This document shows positions 4,751 through 53,013 of a stretch of DNA of 64,000 nt, one piece after another; the first letter of the stretch is position 1, and each line of letters opens with the position of its first letter. The DNA is taken from the NCBI GenBank assembly GCA_021324265.1, contig JAJPJK010000006.1, forward strand, positions 62,001 to 126,000, written 5' to 3'. Position numbers and translations under genes: made by a program. The DNA comes from Thermoproteota archaeon. GTDB taxonomy: Archaea > Thermoproteota > Thermoprotei > Gearchaeales > Gearchaeaceae. The notes beneath the pieces were generated by a model that saw only the letters and a list, made by a program, of their open reading frames with translations, ran no database searches and was not told where the DNA came from.

Positions 4751-4787
4751 ATCTAGCTATTTATTGAGCCCCCTGTTTATTTATTTG

Positions 4788-5396
4788 ATGAAATATATCG
4801 TAGAGCTTCGAGAAAGAATTTTAACTAAGTGGATGCTGTTAGAACTAGAACACGCTTCTTCTATTGTGGGTAAAGAAATGCTTGCTTTTACAAATGTGCG
4901 GTTTAAAAAATGGGCACAGTTATTAGAACCGCTGGGGAAAATTTACAAAAGTAGCATTGTTAATTTGAAAGAATTTCATGACAAAATCATAATTTTGGAT
5001 CCTAAAGCTAACGAAACTTTGAGTATAGAAGAGGCTAAAGAAGCCATATTGGTAATAGGCGGTATAATGGGCAATTACCCGCCAAAAGGCAGGACATATA
5101 AATATATAACCTCTAAAATCCCATCTGTAAGAGCAAGAAATATAGGCAAGCATCAATTCTCCATAGATGGCGCCATTTTCATAGCGAAAAAAATAGCTGA
5201 AGGAAACCCTTTGGAATCGATTCCTTTCGTTAAAAGTATTCGAATTGAAATAGACCCTTTTCACGAAATCATATTGCCTTTTGCCTATCCTTTGTCAAAT
5301 GGTAAACCGCTCATTTACGATAAACTTATAGAATATTTGAAATTCGAAATTGAAATGGATGAGGAAAGAATGCTGCAAAGGGTTAAGCAAAGCTAG
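4788..5396 (+). CDS. SFM1/DUF431-type SPOUT methyltransferase
   Basis: 202 residues from the ATG at 4788. The frame opens earlier with TTG at 4764, but family N-termini begin with a strand like MKYIVE followed by LLELEHAS, which fits the ATG. The signature GGIMGNYPPKGRT (near residue 95) matches the GGIxGDxPPxxRT loop of the SFM1/COG2428 family, which belongs to the SPOUT SAM-dependent methyltransferases with a trefoil knot. In yeast, SFM1 methylates an arginine of ribosomal protein uS3; an archaeal counterpart with the same target is an inference. It is divergent from the MMPL gene, and its last 14 bp overlap the DNA ligase gene end to end. Confidence 0.75.
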   Translation: MKYIVELRERILTKWMLLELEHASSIVGKEMLAFTNVRFKKWAQLLEPLGKIYKSSIVNLKEFHDKIIILDPKANETLSIEEAKEAILVIGGIMGNYPPKGRTYKYITSKIPSVRARNIGKHQFSIDGAIFIAKKIAEGNPLESIPFVKSIRIEIDPFHEIILPFAYPLSNGKPLIYDKLIEYLKFEIEMDEERMLQRVKQS

Positions 5397-34692: not shown

Positions 34693-35337
34693 ATGTCAGA
34701 AAGCTTTTCCAAGAATTGGGATTATGGACCTGCACAAAAATCTCTAAGCGAAAGACTAAAGGATGCAATATATCCACAATCTCCAGTAAAAGAAAGAATC
34801 GACTACGTATGCAGGATACTTGATGTGCAAACTAGTAGGATAGACCAAATTTACAACAGGTTATATGAGAGGGATAGGAGGCTTTTCGAATATCTTGTGA
34901 GTTTCTATATGCGAAGGGATATGAGTAGGGCTAAGGTTTATGCCAATGAGCTTGCGAGCATAAGAAAGCTTGAAAAAGTCATATTGCACAGTAAATATGC
35001 TCTACAGGCTGTTAGGATGAGACTCGATCTTGTCAAGGATGTAGGAGATGTTGCAGTGACATTGGCTCCAGCCATGCGAGTAATTAGTAGTGTGAGGTCT
35101 TGGCTATCAGGTGTGCTTCCTGAAGCTGAGCGTGAACTCTCACAGGTGGGTAGCGTTATAGGTAACATGTTAACAGAAGTGGGTCATCCACCTTCATCCC
35201 AATTTGTCTTTGAAGCAGGAAGTGAAGAGGCTGAAAAAATACTGAATGAGGCTAGAATAATGGTGGAAAGAGAATTGAAGAAGACCTTTGCTGAAATACC
35301 CACAACAACCACAGAAACCGAAAAGACATCGGTGTAA
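34693..35337 (+). CDS. cdvB1: ESCRT-III homologue (CdvB-type, no winged helix)
   Basis: 214 residues. The ESCRT-III core starts near residue 20 with a basic helix (VKERIDYVCRILDVQTSRIDQI), followed by YERDRRLFEYLVSFYMRRDMSRAKVYANELASIRKLEKVI. That stretch matches the long hairpin of archaeal CdvB proteins. It ends in a Thr-rich tail (PTTTTETEKTSV) and lacks the winged helix found in the other ESCRT-III gene downstream. It probably polymerises at the membrane during division. The stop codon is 1 bp ahead of cdvA. The number in the name marks the copy, not orthology with Sulfolobus CdvB1. Confidence 0.88.
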   Translation: MSESFSKNWDYGPAQKSLSERLKDAIYPQSPVKERIDYVCRILDVQTSRIDQIYNRLYERDRRLFEYLVSFYMRRDMSRAKVYANELASIRKLEKVILHSKYALQAVRMRLDLVKDVGDVAVTLAPAMRVISSVRSWLSGVLPEAERELSQVGSVIGNMLTEVGHPPSSQFVFEAGSEEAEKILNEARIMVERELKKTFAEIPTTTTETEKTSV

Positions 35338-35338
35338 C

Positions 35339-35959
35339 ATGTATGCCAACGAATTTGCTAAATACGTAGGTTGCAAGGTAGTCAATGAACTAGATGAAAC
35401 TATAGGTATTATAATCGGCTACACAGCGAATGGTTTAGGAGAAGTATGTACAGTAATAGTTAGAAGCCCCATAGATATCCATGAAGTAAATCTTGAGAAT
35501 ATAGAAAAAGTTAGCGATGATACCTTCAAGCTTCCTTCAAATTTGTATTTCAAATATAAAGCGTTAGAGAAGAAGATAAAGAATATCTACACAAGGCTTG
35601 ACGCAATTAACAAATTTACAGACGAAACGGCCAACAAAGATGTGTTCTTAGCTATAAAAAACAGAACAGAAGAGTCATTGAAAGAAATTCAATCATCATT
35701 GGAATCTTTGAAGGTAGAGGTTCTTTCAAGATTGGAATACTTGAATAAAATTCAAACAAAATTAAATGAAGCTATGGTCGAGATAAAGCTTTCCTATATT
35801 TCTGGGAATATAGACAAAACAAGTTACGATTCAAAAGTTGATCATATACTTAGCGGAAGAAATAGAATAAACAGAGAAATTAATTATCTCCAAGAAATAC
35901 TTAACTCGGTGGAAAATCTTAACAGGACTAGCATAATCGAAGTAAGAATAGTAGGATAG
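35339..35959 (+). CDS. cdvA: CdvA, PRC-barrel/coiled-coil division scaffold
   Basis: 206 residues from the ATG at 35339; an upstream TTG frame exists but lies inside the previous gene. The N-terminal 65 residues (EFAKYVGCKVVNELDETIGIIIGY) form the PRC-barrel-like domain of CdvA. A long coiled coil then spans about 65-195. The C-terminus ends in a hydrophobic strand, SIIEVRIVG, which could be the peptide that binds the CdvB winged helix. CdvA binds membrane and recruits ESCRT-III to the division site in Sulfolobales. Here it sits between two ESCRT-III genes. Confidence 0.85.
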   Translation: MYANEFAKYVGCKVVNELDETIGIIIGYTANGLGEVCTVIVRSPIDIHEVNLENIEKVSDDTFKLPSNLYFKYKALEKKIKNIYTRLDAINKFTDETANKDVFLAIKNRTEESLKEIQSSLESLKVEVLSRLEYLNKIQTKLNEAMVEIKLSYISGNIDKTSYDSKVDHILSGRNRINREINYLQEILNSVENLNRTSIIEVRIVG

Positions 35960-35968
35960 TTTTTTATT

Positions 35969-36736
35969 ATGAAATTTTTCAAAAGAGAACCAGCGTTAAG
36001 GGAGAAACTCGGTAATATATTGTCTACTGTAAAAATTCATCATTCAAGACTTCTTCTGATAAAGCAAAGGTTGGTAGCAAGAGAAAGAACTCTTTTCGAA
36101 AAGCTACAACTGACGCGAAATAATGAGATGTCAAAGATACTGGCAAATGAGATTGCTGAAATAAGAAAACTCCAAGGCAATATAGATAACATCATAGTAG
36201 CTCTTGAGTCATTCATACTTAGGGCTGAAACTATATTGAGCCTAGATGAATTCACGCAGGCAATAACGCCAATACCGAGGATGATAACCTCCATAAAAGA
36301 GGATGCTAGCAAAATATCACCATATCTTAGCGGGGAAATAGAGGAACTTTTCAATAGCATTGATAATCTTAGAGTATACTATCCTGAGAACAATAATATA
36401 GAAGTTACGATGACTGAGGAAGCTGAAGCGATTTTGAAAGAGGCTGCAGAAATGGCTTCGAGTAACGTTGCAAGAAAACTTCCTGAAATTCCTTTGGCGA
36501 GTCAAGAGAAAAAGGTTTCACATGCTGCTTTACTCGAGGCTGAAGGTTACGGGAATGTTAAAACACAAGGTAGGGAACTAAATCCGTTGGAAGATAAGCT
36601 GATAAGATATATATTGGAAAATAGAGGAAGAATAGATCTTAAGCGGTGCAGTGAAGAGCTTGGAATACCACAAACAAACTTGAACAAACTTCTCGATGAT
36701 CTCATAAAGCAAGGAAAATTGCAAAGGCTAAAGTGA
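35969..36736 (+). CDS. cdvB: CdvB, ESCRT-III with MIM2-like motif and winged helix
   Basis: 255 residues. The ESCRT-III core (residues 10-165) shares the RLVARERTLFEKLQ and EIAEIRKLQGNIDN hairpin with the first copy. A short linker carries ARKLPEIPLAS (residues 168-178), similar to the proline-rich MIM2 motif that binds the MIT domain of CdvC/Vps4. The last 50 residues are a winged helix (LEDKLIRYILENRGRIDLKR and so on), which in Sulfolobus binds the CdvA tail. The stop is 1 bp from the cdvC start. This is the division ESCRT-III most like canonical CdvB. Confidence 0.9.
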   Translation: MKFFKREPALREKLGNILSTVKIHHSRLLLIKQRLVARERTLFEKLQLTRNNEMSKILANEIAEIRKLQGNIDNIIVALESFILRAETILSLDEFTQAITPIPRMITSIKEDASKISPYLSGEIEELFNSIDNLRVYYPENNNIEVTMTEEAEAILKEAAEMASSNVARKLPEIPLASQEKKVSHAALLEAEGYGNVKTQGRELNPLEDKLIRYILENRGRIDLKRCSEELGIPQTNLNKLLDDLIKQGKLQRLK

Positions 36737-36737
36737 A

Positions 36738-37862
36738 ATGTCATACAATACTACAGCTACTTATCTCCAGAATGAAGCCGCAAGGCTGATCGAAGATGCA
36801 ATAAAACTTGAAAAAAGCGGTAATTATGCGAAAGCTATAGAGAAATACAAAGACGCGATAGATTGCTTATCAAAACTTATTGAATTAGATCCAACTTATC
36901 AGCTGAATAAACTTTACATTCAACGCATAGCTCAATGCCAAGCTAAAATCAATGAACTAAAACAGATGATGGAAGGGACTACGGCAGAATATGCTGTCTC
37001 AGATACAGTTTATAATCTTGTTTTGAATGAAGCACCAGATGTAAAATGGGAAGATGTCATTGGCCTTGAAGAAACTAAACGTGCATTAATAGAATCGATA
37101 ATCTATCCTTCTAAGAGACCAGAGCTATTCCCGCTAGGGTGGCCTAGGAATATATTGCTATATGGTCCTCCAGGATGCGGTAAAACATTATTGTGCGCAG
37201 CTGTAGCCAGTGAGATAAAATCCGTCTTTTTCAATGTCGATGCAGCTTCTTTATTTTCCAAGTGGCTGGGTGAGTCGGAAAAAAATGTAGCAAAACTTTT
37301 CAATGCAGCTAGGAAATATGAGAGCGAAAATAAGGTTGTTATAATCTTCATCGATGAGGCAGATTCGATATTTGGAGTAACAAATTATGAAGTTGGCGGC
37401 GAGATTAGGTTAAGGAATCAATTTCTTAAAGAAATGGATGGGCTTGTGGAGAAGAACGTTAATAGGAAAATATATTTGATTGCAGCAACCAACAAGCCTT
37501 GGTTGATGGATCTAGCCTTTATAAGGAGATTTCAGCTAAGACTCTATGTTCCTCCTCCAGACTTCAAAACAAGAGTAGAGCTATTCAAATACTATTCGAA
37601 GGCATTGAATCCTTTACAACTTGATTTCGAAAAACTTGCAAGTGCTACTGAAGGATATAGTGCAAGTGATATTAAGGATATCTGCGTTATGGTTCAGAAT
37701 AGCTTAGCCAGAGAAGTATTCGAACAGATGGGTATGGCTAGCAAGCCAAGACAACCTACAACCGAGGATTTCTTGTTAGCAATAAGTAAGCGAAAACCTT
37801 CAATAACACAGGAGATGATAAAAAGGTATGAAACTTGGTATCAAGAATTCAGAAGTTACTAA
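36738..37862 (+). CDS. cdvC: CdvC, Vps4-type AAA ATPase
   Basis: 374 residues. The N-terminal MIT domain (about 8-78, three helices: EAARLIEDAIKLEKSGNYAK) is followed by the AAA module with Walker A GPPGCGKT (143-150), Walker B IIFIDEAD (202-209) and the sensor AATNKP. The C-terminal helical domain carries SASDIKDICVMVQNSL. It disassembles ESCRT-III filaments during constriction. The final bases overlap the DUF35 gene by 4 bp, end to end. All key ATPase residues are present. Confidence 0.96.
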   Translation: MSYNTTATYLQNEAARLIEDAIKLEKSGNYAKAIEKYKDAIDCLSKLIELDPTYQLNKLYIQRIAQCQAKINELKQMMEGTTAEYAVSDTVYNLVLNEAPDVKWEDVIGLEETKRALIESIIYPSKRPELFPLGWPRNILLYGPPGCGKTLLCAAVASEIKSVFFNVDAASLFSKWLGESEKNVAKLFNAARKYESENKVVIIFIDEADSIFGVTNYEVGGEIRLRNQFLKEMDGLVEKNVNRKIYLIAATNKPWLMDLAFIRRFQLRLYVPPPDFKTRVELFKYYSKALNPLQLDFEKLASATEGYSASDIKDICVMVQNSLAREVFEQMGMASKPRQPTTEDFLLAISKRKPSITQEMIKRYETWYQEFRSY

Positions 37863-45946: not shown

Positions 45947-46825
45947 ATGGCATACACCTTAAATTTATATTTGAAGGCAGCTTTCTTAATGGCCTTGCTA
46001 GGCGCCATACTAGTAGGAATAGGTTATTTGATAGGTGGACTGATGATAGCCTTCATTTTCTTAATAATGGCTTTTATAGTGAACTTAATTTTCTACTTCT
46101 TTTCTGATTCAATGGTACTATACAGTACTGGTGCGAGGATAGTAAGTGAGGCTGAGGCTCCAAGGCTTCATAGGATAGTAGAAAGAGTCGCAGCGAAAGC
46201 TGGTATAAAAAAGCCCAAGGTTGCAATAGTCAATTCACCACAACCAAATGCCTTCGCTACTGGGAGAGGGCCTGGTCATGCCGTGGTAGCTGCTACTACA
46301 GGGCTATTAACTTTGATGAATGATGATGAGCTTGAGGCAGTGTTCGGTCATGAGTTGGGCCATGTAGTTAACAGGGATGTATTGGTTGCTACAATTGCAG
46401 CTGCAATGGCCAGTGCAATAACATGGTTAGCATATGTTGTTTTTTGGATAGTCCTAGCTAGAGGTAGGAACGGAGGAGAGATAGCTCTTGCATTCGCTAC
46501 GTATTTGCTAGCTCCTTTAACAGCTTCTCTAATACAACTTGCAATTTCAAGATCCCGCGAGTATCTTGCAGATTATACTGGTGCAAAGCTGACAGGAAAG
46601 CCTCAAAGCCTTATAAGTGCACTTACCAAAATCGAAAATTACATAATGTCAGGAGTTAAGCTCGATGCCCCTCAAACTACAGCCTCGCTATGGATTGCTA
46701 ATCCTTTTAGAAAGGGGATAACTTCAGATGATGTGCTAGAATGGTTCTCTACACATCCTTCTACAAAGAAAAGAATTGAACGTCTAAAGCAGGTTGCAAA
46801 GGAAATGGGAATCTACATAATGTGA
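45947..46825 (+). CDS. htpX: HtpX-type membrane metalloprotease
   Basis: 292 residues. Two membrane helices lie at residues 12-50, and the zinc site HELGH at 135-139 in VFGHELGHVVNRDV; the third ligand Glu is in SREYLADYTGA. Two further helices follow near 150-190. HtpX degrades damaged or unfolded membrane proteins with its active site facing the cytosol. The stop overlaps the GTG start of the ubiquitin-like gene by 4 bp (GTGA), so both are made together. Confidence 0.94.
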   Translation: MAYTLNLYLKAAFLMALLGAILVGIGYLIGGLMIAFIFLIMAFIVNLIFYFFSDSMVLYSTGARIVSEAEAPRLHRIVERVAAKAGIKKPKVAIVNSPQPNAFATGRGPGHAVVAATTGLLTLMNDDELEAVFGHELGHVVNRDVLVATIAAAMASAITWLAYVVFWIVLARGRNGGEIALAFATYLLAPLTASLIQLAISRSREYLADYTGAKLTGKPQSLISALTKIENYIMSGVKLDAPQTTASLWIANPFRKGITSDDVLEWFSTHPSTKKRIERLKQVAKEMGIYIM

Positions 46826-47127
46826 GGTTAAGAATAAACGAAACTTTTATTTTTCAGGATAAAGTTTCTTACCTCGGTTTCGGTAAGAAGATAACCGATG
46901 TTGAAGTAACCCCTAACGATAACGTATTAGAGCTGAAGAAAAGAATCCTAAGAAGGTATAAGCTTGACGATCATCCAGAGCTCTTTTCTATAATCTATAA
47001 GGGTAATGAACTTCTTGACGATAGGAAAATATCTGACCTTGGACTTAAGGGTAATGAAGTTCTTCATATTATCTGCAAAGAAACCTCAAAGCTCAACGAA
47101 GTATTGAGAAGTAAAGGCATACTTTAG
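46822..47127 (+). CDS. Ubiquitin-like beta-grasp protein coupled to HtpX
   Basis: 101 residues starting at GTG 46822, which overlaps the htpX stop. The sequence follows ubiquitin closely: ITDVEVTPNDNVLELKKRI resembles ITLEVEPSDTIENVKAKI, and YKGNELLDDRKISDLGLKGN resembles [20 protein letters not shown], ending in VLHIICKE for the last strand. There is an N-terminal extension with FIFQDKVSYLGFGK, and the tail (KLNEVLRSKGIL) has no di-glycine, so conjugation by a normal E1 is unlikely. It could be an adaptor that feeds or regulates HtpX. Function is inference. Confidence 0.82.
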   Translation: MRLRINETFIFQDKVSYLGFGKKITDVEVTPNDNVLELKKRILRRYKLDDHPELFSIIYKGNELLDDRKISDLGLKGNEVLHIICKETSKLNEVLRSKGIL

Positions 47128-47177: not shown

Positions 47178-48203
47178 TTAGCTCGCCTTTATTATAGTTT
47201 TAATAGCATCGCCTCTTCTAGTTATTTCTAGAGCATCCACTGATTGTTCAAGTCTAAATCTATGTGTTATCATATGTTCTGGGGCGATTATACCCTTTTC
47301 CAATAATGATATAGCCTGATATATTTCGTATTCAGTTGTTGAATACGTGGGAATTATCTTAATTTCATTTATGAAAATATAACTCAAATCCAATGGGATC
47401 TCAGCCCCTTTTTTAGGACTTCCAAATAAACATAATTTACCTCCTTTTCTTAGTGTCTTTATAGCCTGTTTCGTCGCTTCAGTACTTGAAGTAGCGACGA
47501 TTGCAATATCAACTCCTCTATCATTTGACCATGCTTTTATAGTATTTGAGATATCTCTTCTAGTTGGATTAATTGTTAAAGCTGCTCCGATCTTCTCTGC
47601 TTTGTCTAATCTTAAATCATTAATATCTATAGCGGCAACATCGGTGCCATAAATCCTAGTCAATAGCATTAATAATAGCAAGCCAGCTGGCCCCGATCCA
47701 TAGATTGCAATCTTATCACCAATCTGCGGTGAAATCTTATTTACAGCCCTAATACAACAAGCTAGTGGTTCTATAAATGTAGCCCGCTCTGTATCGATAT
47801 TGTTGCTTAGCTTGAATACTCCCTTCCTTTCTATTATTTGTGAGGGGACTCTAAAGTATTCAGAAAGACCGCATGGATCCAGATTCACTTTTGAAAACTG
47901 GTCGCAAAGCGTAAAATCTCCTCTTAAACAGTAATAACAAACTCTACAAGGGACATGATGATGCACAAATACCCTACTACCTTTTTCCAAACCCTCAACT
48001 TTCTGGCCTATTTCTTCAATCACTCCTACTACTTCGTGACCTAAAACTGGTGGGGTTATAAAATCTCCCTCATATTTTTCGAGGTCTGTACCGCATATGC
48101 CGCATGCAAGTAATCTCACTAGTATTTCGTTATCAGCGATCTTTGGCCTTTCGAGTTCTACAATCCTAACATCCCTTTTTCCAAATAAAAGAGCCGCTTT
48201 CAT
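47178..48203 (-). CDS. Zinc-dependent alcohol dehydrogenase (MDR family)
   Basis: 341 residues. The catalytic zinc site is CGICGTDLEKY and GHEVVG. The structural zinc has the four-Cys pattern CRVCYYCLRGDFTLC. The Rossmann motif is YGSGPAGLLLL. It resembles threonine dehydrogenase- and sorbitol-dehydrogenase-like archaeal MDRs, but the substrate is not clear. It overlaps the macro gene by 4 bp and closes the minus-strand run SCO1, membrane protein, macro domain, ADH. Confidence 0.9.
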   Translation of the reverse strand: MKAALLFGKRDVRIVELERPKIADNEILVRLLACGICGTDLEKYEGDFITPPVLGHEVVGVIEEIGQKVEGLEKGSRVFVHHHVPCRVCYYCLRGDFTLCDQFSKVNLDPCGLSEYFRVPSQIIERKGVFKLSNNIDTERATFIEPLACCIRAVNKISPQIGDKIAIYGSGPAGLLLLMLLTRIYGTDVAAIDINDLRLDKAEKIGAALTINPTRRDISNTIKAWSNDRGVDIAIVATSSTEATKQAIKTLRKGGKLCLFGSPKKGAEIPLDLSYIFINEIKIIPTYSTTEYEIYQAISLLEKGIIAPEHMITHRFRLEQSVDALEITRRGDAIKTIIKAS

Positions 48204-48730
48204 GAGAAAATTTTGTTAGCGACATTGATAAAATCCTCATAAGCTTCTTCATCTCTTAATACAATGCAAATCGTTTGAATAGTAGCCCCCGCATCTAATT
48301 CCTCCTTTATTGCCCTAAGCATTGCAGATGCTGCATCAATGTAGGAAACTCCACCAACGCCAGTGCCCATTGCAGGGAATGCTATACTTCTAATCCCTCT
48401 TTTTTTGGATTCTTGGAGCGCAGCTTTTGTGGAAAGATATACTTTCTCCTTGTTTGTTAGCATTGCAGGCCTTTCCATTGTAGGCGAATGCACTACATAT
48501 TTAGCTTTGAGTCTTCCAGCATTGGTTATTATGGCTTTTCCAACTTCTACAGGTGCTTTGCTCATTGCTTCTTGCTCTATTTCCTTTCCTCCCTTGTTCT
48601 TTATTGCACCCGCTACACCACCACCCATTATCATAAGAGAATTCGCTGGGTTTACTATCGCTTCTGTATCTTCATTAAGAAGATCTCCGATTTTTATTTC
48701 TATTTTTGTCCCTTTGTAATGGGCTTCCAT
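48200..48730 (-). CDS. Macro-domain protein (ADP-ribose binding/hydrolase)
   Basis: 176 residues, a stand-alone macro domain. The first loop is VNPANSLMIMGGGVAGAI, with the Asn and Gly-rich phosphate loop. The second is SIAFPAMGTGVGGVSYIDAA. These residues bind ADP-ribose and, in MacroD-like and AF1521-like proteins, remove ADP-ribose from proteins or deacetylate O-acetyl-ADP-ribose. Its start lies 31 bp inside the end of the upstream membrane protein gene. It is coupled to the ADH gene, although no mechanistic link is clear. Confidence 0.92.
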   Translation of the reverse strand: MEAHYKGTKIEIKIGDLLNEDTEAIVNPANSLMIMGGGVAGAIKNKGGKEIEQEAMSKAPVEVGKAIITNAGRLKAKYVVHSPTMERPAMLTNKEKVYLSTKAALQESKKRGIRSIAFPAMGTGVGGVSYIDAASAMLRAIKEELDAGATIQTICIVLRDEEAYEDFINVANKIFS

Positions 48731-49332
48731 GAAATATTGAGGTTCTTTTGCTTATTTATCCTTCTAAGTTGGATGAAAAGCAGTACGAGATTAATTACTA
48801 TCCCTGTTATGAATATGGCATTACTAACGCTTGTAAAGAGCGCTGAGAAACTTACAGTGTAACCAGTCACTGCAACTATAACTGCTTGGGCCATGACAAA
48901 GGCCGTCGCAGTTCCGCATGAGGGGCATGCAGATATGGCAGACGTTATGAGAGATAATCCTGCAATACCAGTGAATGTTCCGCAGGCAGCGCCGCTCTTA
49001 CTAATTTTTGCATAGTTTGTAAGAGCGAAGTTGAAAGCGCCTGTAAAAGCCAAAATTAAGAGCAAGATGAAAGTAGTAGCATCAATTATTACCAACCATT
49101 CAAAGCCCGACACGCCTGCAATGGAATATTGAGAGCCTATCCATAAAATCACGAAATCATCGTAGTTTGGCAGAAATTTTGTTGAGCTTGGTGCATATAG
49201 CAGGCCGAAGCTTGAAGGAGGATTGCCGCTAATCAGCCATTGAATTAAAATCAAAGATAAAATGTAAGAAAGTACTATGGCAATGAATGTGAATATGAAC
49301 AACTTACTTCTAAGTAATCTTGCATATCTCAT
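48700..49332 (-). CDS. Integral membrane protein with a CPSCG motif
   Basis: 210 residues with four to five hydrophobic segments. The third carries SACPSCGTATAFVMAQ, a CxxC inside or beside the membrane. N-terminal helices are at 13-34 and 75-100, and the last near 160-185. It starts in a 4-bp overlap with the SCO1 gene (ATGA), so the two probably work together. The CxxC could transfer electrons or copper to or from SCO1. I do not recognise the family by name. Confidence 0.75.
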   Translation of the reverse strand: MRYARLLRSKLFIFTFIAIVLSYILSLILIQWLISGNPPSSFGLLYAPSSTKFLPNYDDFVILWIGSQYSIAGVSGFEWLVIIDATTFILLLILAFTGAFNFALTNYAKISKSGAACGTFTGIAGLSLITSAISACPSCGTATAFVMAQAVIVAVTGYTVSFSALFTSVSNAIFITGIVINLVLLFIQLRRINKQKNLNISWKPITKGQK

Positions 49333-49952
49333 TGCCTAATTAATATTAGCATATCGTTCAATAAATCGTTAGGCGTCCATTGGCTTGCGATAATTGTAGG
49401 ATTACCGAAAGATACAACTCTTCTAAGCTCTTTGTCTATTAAGAATACTATCGCAGTATGTGTAACAGTATAGTTTGTACCGTTTCCATCTTTTTCAACT
49501 AATATTCCATATGCATACCAAACACTTTTTAGTGTGGATTCAGGCCCAACTAGGTAATGGATGTTGCTCGGGGCTCCAAGACTTTCGAGATATGCCTTTG
49601 CTTGGTACTTATCTCTCTCGGGGTCTACGGATATCAATAACATCACATATTGGTTAGAATAACCTTCACTGTTCAACGTTTTTGCAACCGTCACAAAATT
49701 TCTAATTATTACTGGGCAGACATTCGGACAATTTACATATACGAATGACATTGCTATGACTTTCCCGTAGAATTGATTAAGTTCGATAGATTGGTTGTTC
49801 TGGTCATACAATACAAAGTCGGATGTATTTAATGGAGGATTGAAAACATACCCCTTGAATTTAGGCTGTTGATTAAATGCTTGCAAAACCAGCACCGATG
49901 CAACGATCGCAATTACCACTATACCGATCAAAATGTAATAGATTCTTTTCAT
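49329..49952 (-). CDS. SCO1/SenC-type copper or thiol-disulfide protein
   Basis: 207 residues from the ATG at 49952. The longer frame to 49976 adds eight residues ahead of the helix, but a TATA-like box (complement of about 49976-49984) sits 27 bp before 49952 and favours the shorter form. A signal anchor covers residues 3-25. The SCO core has FVYVNCPNVCPV (CxxxC) and the later TVTHTAIVFLID with the copper His. SCO1 inserts CuA in heme-copper oxidases or acts as a thiol oxidoreductase. This suggests the host can respire oxygen or nitrogen oxides, an inference. Confidence 0.88.
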   Translation of the reverse strand: MKRIYYILIGIVVIAIVASVLVLQAFNQQPKFKGYVFNPPLNTSDFVLYDQNNQSIELNQFYGKVIAMSFVYVNCPNVCPVIIRNFVTVAKTLNSEGYSNQYVMLLISVDPERDKYQAKAYLESLGAPSNIHYLVGPESTLKSVWYAYGILVEKDGNGTNYTVTHTAIVFLIDKELRRVVSFGNPTIIASQWTPNDLLNDMLILIRQ

Positions 49953-50013
49953 TGAGGGAAAAGTGCATCGTCGCATATATAAATCTAAATATTTAAAATT
50001 ATATAAATATATA

Positions 50014-50502
50014 TTATACCAAATTATATAAATACGGTAACAATAGATCCTTAATTCTCTGCTTTTGGTCTTTACTTAGATATTTAAAACCTTTTATAAA
50101 TTTAATACAATTTTTTGAATTGCATGAACAAACAAATGCATCAACTCCCATATCATATTCGCTTGTATTGTAGTTATAACATAGTTCTTCATCTTTTCTT
50201 ATATCTCTTAGTGCAATTAAGAATAGCTGTTTATTTGATAATAAGAGTTTGCAATTTGGTTCGCAGGAATGATTTATGAACTTTCCTTCTCCTGAAGGTA
50301 GTAAGTAAAGCGAAAAATCTAGTTGTAAGGCATAAGGGCTATGTATATTGGTCAAATCTGCTTTTATTAGATCTCCATGAAAAACTAGGATTATTTCATC
50401 CTTTTTTATATCCTTATTCGCGAAGACGCCTTTGCCATTGCAAAGGTTTGAATTTGAGATATAAACAGTCCCTCTCTCCGAGAGGGGTTTTAGCCTTTGC
50501 AT
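50014..50502 (-). CDS. SET-domain protein lysine methyltransferase with post-SET motif
   Basis: 162 residues. The SET core is GKGVFANKDIKKDEIIL, then GKFINHSCEPNC (NHSC at 77-80) and RDIRKDEELCYNYN (106-112), forming the pseudoknot where SAM binds. A post-SET-like CxCxxxxC motif follows at Cys125, Cys127 and Cys132, which with Cys80 could hold zinc as in eukaryotic SET enzymes. It is likely to methylate lysines in chromatin or other proteins. SET domains are rare in thermophilic Thermoproteota, so transfer or an old retained gene should be considered. It stands alone with its own promoter. Confidence 0.9.
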   Translation of the reverse strand: MQRLKPLSERGTVYISNSNLCNGKGVFANKDIKKDEIILVFHGDLIKADLTNIHSPYALQLDFSLYLLPSGEGKFINHSCEPNCKLLLSNKQLFLIALRDIRKDEELCYNYNTSEYDMGVDAFVCSCNSKNCIKFIKGFKYLSKDQKQRIKDLLLPYLYNLV

Positions 50503-50598: not shown

Positions 50599-53013
50599 TC
50601 ATCGGTCATTAAATTTACTTTTTAATTTGCTTATAAACTTCTTAGTGAGCGTAGCAACTTTCAAAGCACTTTCATATTCTGTTGAAGAAGCTATGATATC
50701 TAATCCAGCTCCAAAAAGGGAAGGCATCACTCCGCATTTCGCTTCTTCATATTCAAATATTAGCTTGCTGCCCAGGCTCTTCGCCTTTTCAGCACCAGCT
50801 AGTTCATGTAGGATTTTTGGTATCTTATCAATTGTGACATCTTCAAATTGGGAGACCAAAAAATGATTCGGAAGTTCCTTCATCAACTTTTCAAGAGTTG
50901 TTTTATTATTTCTCAGATATGCGCCTAATAGAATCGAATTCGTTAGTCCATCGAAATAAGGCAGTGGGTGGAATGCAGTTCCGAAGTTTGGATCAAATAA
51001 AGCAACATTATTCCTCGTAAGTATTCTCGAATAATCTCTAAACGGTATATCTTCGGTTTTAACTGATAAACCCAAGTCCTTAATATCATCAATTATTTCG
51101 TCACAAATGTAAGGTGGGATAAACACTTCTTTTTTATTCGCTATTTCATTTCCAGCGAGTATCTCTAGCAACATCTTTTTTCCTTCATCAATTTTTTCAT
51201 AATGTTCATTATATACTTCTATCTTGCTTAATTCATGATTTGGCTCAACAGTAATAAAAGAATCCTTTTTTTCTTTTGGTAGTTCTGCCAATTCATATAT
51301 ATAAAATATAGGATACCCTTTATCTCTAATTTTTTCTAAGATATGTCTAAGCTGAAAATCTTTACCGATTAAAAAGTATATCTCAATACTACTATGATTA
51401 TTTATAACTTTATTCAATAATTCAATGTAAGCTTCTATTAAATCATTTATTGCTAAAGTATTTAATTTTCCAGTTTCTCTTATATCTACTAATCTAAATT
51501 CCTCTCGATAAAATATATTTTCGATCTTTTTCTCTATTTTTTCATTAATACTAATACCTTCTTCATCAAGTAAATAAATCATGATTTCTGAAATGCTTTT
51601 ATTACTACTTGTTATATATAAATTATATTTTATTTTAGTTAATCTGTTTATAATTCTTGACATAACAGCAGATATAATCCCGCCGTTTTCTACATTAACA
51701 CCAGTTGAGATTATCCCTGAAGAAATCGGAAAACCTATGAGATTTGCTAAAGTTTTAGAAGATGTTGAAAGAGCTATTGCGTCTTTATTCTTCACAGTAC
51801 TTGCTATTGCCCTACCAAATTTTGCGGAAAGTTCAGGCGTGATTTCTGTATTTATGGCAAATCTTGCAACACTTTGAGTGAACATTGGTCTTGGGATTCT
51901 AATCAGTGTGACTATGTTTGAAGTAACCGTAAGATTTTCATCTATTACTTTATCTGGCCAAATTCTAATATTAGGTCTTATCTCTACTCCTCTGTTTACG
52001 ACGGTCCTTTCTCCTATTACACAATTCTCAAATATTGTCACTTTATCATCTATTTTCGCATATCTATCTATAATGCTGGAAGCTATTGAGCACCTGTCAC
52101 CGATATAAACTCCTTTACAAATTAGGCTATACGTCAGAATTGTATTTTTACCTATAGTCACTTCTTCGTCTATGACTGTAAAAGGACCTATCTTAGCTCC
52201 TTGTTTTATTGTAGCATTTCCGTTTATTAGTGATGGTTCGACAATATCTCGATAATCTTTTGCGATAGTTTGATTCTTGGTTGCTATTTCATATAACTCC
52301 TTTGAAGCTCCTGCTAAAAGCTCATGGTTACACTTCAAATATTGTTCTATGGTTCCTATATCACGCCAAAAGGCTTCAGAGTAAAATCCGAAAATGGCCT
52401 CTCCCTTTGAAAGCAGAATAGGTATGAGGTCTCTACTGAAATCGAATTCAGTAGAACGAGGTATAAGCTTCAATACTTCCGGTTCAAGAATATACATTCC
52501 TGCATTAATGAAATTACTAAAAACTTCTGAAGGGGAAGGTTTCTCAAGGTATCTAGTTATTCTTCCTTCTTCATCTAGTTTAGCGATGCCAAATTGATAA
52601 GGTTCTTCCGAATAACTCAAAGCTATGGTCATCGCTGCACCTTTCTTTTTATGGAATTCTAGCATGTTTGATAGGCTTAGATCTGTTATCAAATCACCGC
52701 TAACAACAATAACCCTTTCTGTTGTTTCGCCAAGTGCCTCTCTCACTCCGCCTGCAGTCCCTAATGGTCTTTCTTCGATTGAATACCCTATGTTTAAATT
52801 TAACTCAGAACCATCTCCATATTCCGAAATGATTAATTGAGGGAGATAATGTAGGGTTACCTTTACATCTTTAATTCCTATATTCCTAACCCTAGTCAGA
52901 TTATAGGTAAGCACTGGGACGTTTAAAACCCTTACAAGTGGTTTTGGTTTCGTGACTGTTAGCGGTCTCAATCTCGTTCCTTCGCCACCGGCTAGTAATA
53001 CAGCTGTTGTCAT
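50599..53013 (-). CDS. Sugar-1-phosphate nucleotidyltransferase fused to a degenerate phosphohexomutase-like domain
   Basis: 804 residues in three parts. Residues 1-235 are a nucleotidyltransferase with LAGGEGTRLRPLT and KPKPLV, likely mannose- or glucose-1-phosphate type. Residues about 250-380 form a left-handed beta-helix of hexapeptide repeats. Residues 380-804 resemble a phosphomannomutase. The mutase phosphoserine loop (normally TASHNP) appears as TSSNKS, and no DGDxDR metal loop is visible, so this half is probably not a mutase. Such fusions occur in cyanobacteria and archaea. It overlaps the reverse gyrase stop by 4 bp. It makes NDP-sugars for glycans. Confidence 0.85.
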   Translation of the reverse strand: MTTAVLLAGGEGTRLRPLTVTKPKPLVRVLNVPVLTYNLTRVRNIGIKDVKVTLHYLPQLIISEYGDGSELNLNIGYSIEERPLGTAGGVREALGETTERVIVVSGDLITDLSLSNMLEFHKKKGAAMTIALSYSEEPYQFGIAKLDEEGRITRYLEKPSPSEVFSNFINAGMYILEPEVLKLIPRSTEFDFSRDLIPILLSKGEAIFGFYSEAFWRDIGTIEQYLKCNHELLAGASKELYEIATKNQTIAKDYRDIVEPSLINGNATIKQGAKIGPFTVIDEEVTIGKNTILTYSLICKGVYIGDRCSIASSIIDRYAKIDDKVTIFENCVIGERTVVNRGVEIRPNIRIWPDKVIDENLTVTSNIVTLIRIPRPMFTQSVARFAINTEITPELSAKFGRAIASTVKNKDAIALSTSSKTLANLIGFPISSGIISTGVNVENGGIISAVMSRIINRLTKIKYNLYITSSNKSISEIMIYLLDEEGISINEKIEKKIENIFYREEFRLVDIRETGKLNTLAINDLIEAYIELLNKVINNHSSIEIYFLIGKDFQLRHILEKIRDKGYPIFYIYELAELPKEKKDSFITVEPNHELSKIEVYNEHYEKIDEGKKMLLEILAGNEIANKKEVFIPPYICDEIIDDIKDLGLSVKTEDIPFRDYSRILTRNNVALFDPNFGTAFHPLPYFDGLTNSILLGAYLRNNKTTLEKLMKELPNHFLVSQFEDVTIDKIPKILHELAGAEKAKSLGSKLIFEYEEAKCGVMPSLFGAGLDIIASSTEYESALKVATLTKKFISKLKSKFNDR

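Follow-up and report, generated by a model that had tools for sequence, protein, structure and literature searches.

A small SET-domain protein gene in an operon-like run of a Thermoproteota archaeon

The window is the 64,000-nucleotide stretch of a Thermoproteota archaeon (family Gearchaeaceae) that was analysed here. On its minus strand, at 50014-50502, lies an open reading frame of 162 amino acids with an ATG start. The frame matches the Pfam SET family (PF00856) at 70.1 bits (cut-off 22.4, E 2.4e-19) over model positions 1-105 of 105, i.e., a complete SET domain. No other PF00856 match occurs in the host genome. Relatives with 49-50% identity to it are open frames in two other genomes of the host family, although in one the contig ends within the gene. 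These open relatives, and a structure model that matches solved SET domains, argue that the frame is not a chance one. The gene is apparently intact and probably encodes an active class V (SET) SAM-dependent methyltransferase of a prokaryotic SET group. A preliminary description of this DNA, which gave no strand for the gene, had proposed a SET methyltransferase with a zinc motif, and both parts are borne out.

The SET signature residues are all present in the protein (G23, G25, N77, H78, C80, and Y111). GKG at residues 23-25 (50428-50436, minus strand, as for all features of the gene) is a GxG that we take, from established SET biochemistry, to be part of the SAM site. NHSC at residues 77-80 (50263-50274) contains the SAM-binding Asn-His pair and a probable zinc ligand, Cys80; in alignment A3, N77, H78, and C80 are invariant and S79 is nearly so. 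The SAM-binding residues on which the preliminary description depended are present. YNY at residues 109-111 (50170-50178) holds Tyr109, presumably at the switch position of SET enzymes, and the catalytic Tyr111; the KMT2A and KMT2D rows have YDY at these columns. CSCNSKNC at residues 125-132 (50107-50130) supplies the post-SET cysteines, invariant in alignments A1 and A3. The C-terminal tail KGFKYL...LLLPYL, residues 137-162 (50017-50094), has a predicted helix at 144-161. Every host-family row that spans the SAM-site, catalytic, and zinc positions retains these residues.

The SET gene belongs to a run of minus-strand genes. It is accompanied by a SCO1/SenC protein (49329-49976, by Pfam), a probable membrane protein judged by eye and without a Pfam match (48700-49332), a Macro-domain protein (48200-48730, by Pfam), and a zinc-dependent medium-chain dehydrogenase (47178-48203). 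The nearest NCBIfam model of the dehydrogenase is L-threonine 3-dehydrogenase, with a score under the cut-off of that model. Gaps and overlaps from SET to dehydrogenase are 4-37 bp, and the SET-(SCO1-membrane protein)-Macro-dehydrogenase run is operon-like. Macro is found in the SET gene run, with the dehydrogenase directly after it, in 3/3 family genomes. Macro and dehydrogenase overlap by 4 bp in all three; in the two relatives, SET and Macro are 7 and 4 bp apart, and neither has SCO1/SenC at this place. One relative (G001) has HtpX, the ubiquitin-fold gene, dehydrogenase, Macro, SET, and reverse gyrase, in this order. The window agrees with it except in two places: SCO1 and the membrane protein separate Macro from SET, and a nucleotidyltransferase-phosphoglucomutase fusion separates SET from reverse gyrase. 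The other relative (G002) has a contig that begins within SET and continues with Macro and dehydrogenase. The domain, its residues, their conservation, and this gene order are observations; zinc binding, activity, and a lysine substrate are inferred.

Several smaller observations concern this neighborhood. The fusion at 50599-53013 joins a nucleotidyltransferase, hexapeptide repeats, and a phosphoglucomutase-like domain and is absent at this place in G001. A Macro match is found in 25 of 26 genomes searched, one as a fragment only. Six Macro contexts opened outside the host family had no SET gene adjoining Macro; a seventh, L058, yielded no Macro ORF. A terminator-like hairpin of 7 pairs lies on the minus strand at 50470-50486, within the first codons of the SET gene. 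Two terminator-like sites were found in the 801 bases scanned, with 0.3 expected. A promoter scan was at chance level (4 found, 4.4 expected).

SET matches occur in 3/3 host-family genomes, which represent two genera, and in none of the 58 other genomes of a 61-genome relative set. In the phylum, 10 of 398 Thermoproteota genomes have a match, two of the ten being partial or stop-broken. The Thermoproteota family f16 has 9 matches in 151 genomes. SET proteins are uncommon in Thermoproteota, as the preliminary description had stated. In its available text, a 2022 survey places the archaeal SET proteins of its sample in Euryarchaeota and one Asgard genome only (PMC9018016). The Methanosarcina mazei SET protein was said in 2010 to be limited to a few methanogens, according to the accessible part of that paper (PMC2929605). 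SET has been treated as a eukaryotic innovation with lateral transfer (PMC1282579), and SET genes have also been argued to be of bacterial and archaeal descent (PMC3980110). A literature search found no SET protein reported for Thermoproteota, which is no proof of absence. The host-family gene is a clear family-wide case in this phylum, in a genome that also has reverse gyrase and an aKMT-like enzyme.

Other SET genes met in these searches vary in state. At the f16 loci L034, L035, and L037, from different genomes, SET types A (with tail) and B (without) occur among neighbors that appear similar on inspection by eye; genome G179 (L035) has both types in tandem. The SET match of G363 in family f53 (L018 and L039) is broken by one TAG and one TAA, and this gene has probably decayed. 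A Streptomyces sp. NBC_00724 plasmid (L028, 3001-3475) has a SET-like stretch with a frame switch, annotated as a hypothetical protein and probably broken. The LegAS4/AnkI NCBIfam match scored 18.7 bits, far below its cut-off of 550, and was rejected as remote SET similarity.

The NHSC and CxCxxxxC arrangement of the window protein had been called eukaryote-like. CxCxxxxC is present in 27/31 prokaryotic SET rows, a biased census in which rows were gathered by likeness to the query or by PF00856 and one scan used KFINHSCE among its patterns. The 31 rows are 26 tabulated ones with L019, L022, L023, L024, and the second SET-like ORF of L003. The motif is missing in the cyanophage row, L019, L024, and the second ORF of L003, and is also found in the BurB fragment, outside this count. 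Row L028 was omitted because its SET reading changes frame, and 6 of the 29 matched plasmid records were fetched and 5 used. Given the 27/31 rows, the zinc tail is not eukaryote-specific. The count shows CxCxxxxC to be ordinary in free-standing prokaryotic SET proteins. The arrangement is thus not diagnostic of eukaryotic-type SET domains (KMT2/NSD/SET2), and the post-SET motif is no argument for eukaryotic affinity.

Other motifs separate the window protein from the eukaryotic rows. Y-x-[TSM]-x-E, starting at the catalytic Tyr, is found in 11/27 prokaryotic rows (26 plus BurB) and 0/4 eukaryotic rows. A tail with F/Y at 139 and L at 142 is found in 12/27 and 0/4, respectively; three of the four eukaryotic fragments stop before the tail, so its absence there says little. 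Y-x-[TSM]-x-E and the KGFKxL...PYL tail helix link the window protein to a prokaryotic set that includes BurB. The eukaryote-like label does not hold, although KMT2 enzymes top the PDB lists by sequence and fold, and one tree puts the host family and eukaryotic rows on the same side of a weak branch. We read the window protein as an uncommon member of its family and not as a eukaryotic link.

A phylogeny was among the checks proposed in the preliminary description. The nearest rows after the host family are two f16 SET proteins, L016 (37% identity) and L013 (35%). In the 31-row tree, the host-family SET group (f1), the f16 SETs of type A with tail (f16A), L027 from Streptomyces, and a long phage row were grouped (84/90), and the eukaryotic rows stood apart from f1 with six prokaryotic rows (94/95). 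In the tree without the phage row, f1 was a single group (94/89). Here f1, f16A, L027, four eukaryotic rows, and six prokaryotic rows shared a side of the weak branch (68/84), and, f1 and f16A aside, no row lay nearer to the query than KMT2A. Constraining f1 with the four eukaryotic rows cost 20.9 log units (p-AU 0.059), and with f16A 2.2 log units (p 0.16). Bacterial and other archaeal sampling consisted of 8 loci of one genome-contig scan with plasmid and phage records. L019, L022, L023, L024, and the second SET-like ORF of L003 stood outside the tree; of these, L022 and L023 have CxCxxxxC. The host-family sequences form one group, and a sister relation to the eukaryotic rows is disfavored without being rejected by the test. 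No eukaryotic sister group was recovered in either tree; both are largely unresolved, and no branching order is claimed.

The AlphaFold model of the protein was built on a nine-sequence alignment (A4) and has a pLDDT of 74.7, with values below 50 at residues 1-6, 115-121, and 158-162. It matches solved SET (beta-clip) folds; the superposition with 7w6l_E covers 123 residues at Z 16.6 and rmsd 2.2. The top fold matches are MLL3 and ASH1L (Z 16.6), and Foldseek gives E 4e-11 to MLL1. Five of the nine A4 sequences (L002, L004, L005, L007, and L008) stand beside KMT2 rows in the trees, so the likeness of the model to KMT2 may be biased. By sequence, the first PDB match is KMT2D for the window protein, L010, and profile A2. 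Lysine methyltransferases top the PDB lists for the window protein by sequence and by fold.

The KMT2 (MLL) SET domains (4z4p and 7w67) are the best PDB matches by both measures. They share GxG, NHSC, equivalents of Y57, Y109, and Y111, and the post-SET cysteines. They differ in having no Y-x-[TSM]-x-E and no tail in the fragments, which stop at or just past the post-SET. Eukaryotic KMT2 proteins are large complex subunits. In SET lysine enzymes, columns 57, 109, and 111 form an aromatic lysine channel, and the window protein has Tyr at all three, the same as the KMT2 rows. Tyr at column 57 is found in 2/2 host-family rows with data and 4/4 eukaryotic lysine-enzyme rows, and also in L002, L004, L005, L007, and L027; relatives from family f16 have Thr or Asn. 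Tyr at column 109 is found in 3/3 host-family rows, both KMT2 rows, L002, L004, and the phage row; NSD2 and Set2 have Phe.

Given the agreement of Y57, Y109, and Y111 with lysine enzymes, the most likely substrate is lysine in one or a few cellular proteins. The gene would then encode a catalytically competent SET lysine methyltransferase of a prokaryotic group, kept in an operon-like run, a reading held tentatively at slightly under an even chance. SAM would be bound at GxG and Asn77-His78. A structural zinc, most likely bound by Cys80, Cys125, Cys127, and Cys132, would close the post-SET over the active site, and Tyr57, Tyr109, and Tyr111 would line the lysine-type channel. The SET score, the kept residues, the lysine enzymes atop the PDB lists, and the absence of all four named BurB side chains count for a lysine substrate. 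A precedent is Go1-SET of M. mazei, also an archaeal SET protein, which methylates MC1-alpha according to the available text (PMC3980110); the two are likened by description, not by sequence, and differ in that Go1-SET acts on this chromatin protein. Against a lysine substrate, the sole characterized protein that shares the motifs, BurB, is not a lysine enzyme, and the Macro and dehydrogenase neighbors look metabolic and do not suggest a protein substrate.

The host also has a second candidate lysine methyltransferase. The 175-codon frame L066, found via PF13847, scores 160 bits to PDB 5fa8 and 157 bits to 5jwj, whose entry name is Protein-lysine N-methyltransferase; both entries are presumably Sulfolobus aKMT. 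The aKMT type resembles the window protein in being concerned with lysine methylation in Thermoproteota, and differs in being a class I (Rossmann-fold), non-SET methyltransferase. Since the host already has this aKMT-like enzyme, the SET protein seems to be supplementary and not the general lysine methyltransferase, and it would act as a specialized extra. Cren7 and Alba matches are found in 5/5 genomes of the order of the host, and a histone-fold match in 0/5 (3/14 controls were positive). In Sulfolobus, aKMT methylates Cren7, as stated in the accessible part of PMC8927968, and bulk Cren7 methylation in the host is more likely due to the aKMT-like enzyme than to the SET enzyme.

BurB, a methionine S-methyltransferase of Burkholderia thailandensis (PDB 9l4t and 9l4v; PMC12542666, available in part), suggests another possible, less probable reading. 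The window protein would be a BurB-like small-molecule methyltransferase acting on the sulfur of methionine or on a related compound (a thioether or an amine), and the dehydrogenase of its gene run may belong to the same pathway. Both are small single domains of SET fold with CxCxxxxC, Y-x-[TSM]-x-E, and, after the post-SET, G-x-K-x-L; an F-x-C-x-C stretch is also common to the two. Y-x-[TSM]-x-E and G-x-K-x-L also occur in other bacterial and archaeal SETs without an assigned function. BurB is the first PDB match of L016, the closest relative outside the host family, and of L027. With the whole window protein it ranks 41, and with residues 95-162 third. Its alignment to the model spans residues 3-148, more than the KMT2 rows cover, at Z 14.3 and rmsd 4.3, and the model is weak at 115-121, a region that adjoins the substrate in BurB. 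A Tabrizicola piscis plasmid (L026, 1124-3828) has a same-motif SET gene whose run also includes genes for a GHMP kinase, a PLP-dependent enzyme, and a DMT-family transporter, which suggests a small-molecule pathway.

Other comparisons argue against a BurB-like activity. BurB has LHSC for NHSC, Met for Tyr109, and His72 for Tyr57. H93 and Y124 of BurB correspond to H78 and Y111, and its R42 and A44 fall outside the printed alignments. The named side chains His72, Ser88, Arg133, and His138 are Tyr57, Gly73, Asp121, and Ser126 in the window protein, with 0/4 kept. In the available text, BurB contacts SAM through R42, A44, H72, H93, R133, and H138 and methionine through the main chains of R70, T73, and M132, with V130 via water (PMC12542666). 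The side-chain test is weak: main-chain atoms make the methionine contacts, and the S88A variant retains >60% activity (PMC12542666). The tree does not join f1, f16A, and BurB; constraining them together costs 7.7 log units (p-AU 0.165). A match to PF02574, homocysteine S-methyltransferase, is found in 0/5 genomes of the order (9/14 controls were positive); this enzyme is a usual consumer of S-methylmethionine.

A recent acquisition of a bacterial or eukaryotic SET gene, with no settled host role, is improbable. The patchy distribution given above, the single match in the host genome, and a G+C content of 31% against 36% in the window are in its favor. The gene is present in every family genome, across two genera, at 49-50% identity and with the same neighbors, and there is no mobile-element gene among the neighbors that could be named. 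An old transfer into the ancestor of the host family is likely. A viral or plasmid origin was rejected: none of the 70 pattern hits of profile A2 in a viral-contig scan was confirmed as a relative, 1 of 50,697 phage records matched weakly, and 29 of 72,556 plasmid records matched, all with <60% identity. Just as improbable is a chromatin-modifying role, in which the enzyme would methylate Cren7 or Alba much as eukaryotic enzymes methylate histones: these proteins are present throughout the order and Go1-SET offers a precedent, but two sister-family genomes have both proteins and no SET match, the host has no histone match, and its aKMT-like enzyme is at hand for Cren7.

The conserved gene order allows a broader proposal, unlikely but a little less so than these last two. 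SET, Macro, and dehydrogenase on one transcript in a histone-less archaeon may couple methylation to ADP-ribose/NAD-linked metabolism, with an enzyme that stands between the lysine- and methionine-methylating SET branches and combines BurB-type scaffold motifs with a lysine-type channel. At 162 amino acids, it is a small protein for asking where lysine and methionine substrates diverged in the SET superfamily.

The preliminary description had also pointed to an ESCRT-III system, a ubiquitin-like protein, and an SFM1-like enzyme in the window. The SFM1-like enzyme (4764-5396) and a ubiquitin-fold ORF (46822-47127) are present. Of the ESCRT-III system, CdvA (35288-35959) and Vps4/CdvC (36738-37862) were confirmed, but the CdvB-like candidates (34693-35337 and 35969-36736) have no Pfam match and are named by position only. 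No evidence was found in the window that links these genes to SET, whose neighbors kept in 3/3 genomes are Macro and dehydrogenase. The ubiquitin-fold protein does not end in Gly-Gly, which makes simple conjugation doubtful. Its gene shares 4 bp with the end of the HtpX protease gene (45947-46825), and G001 has the two side by side as well.
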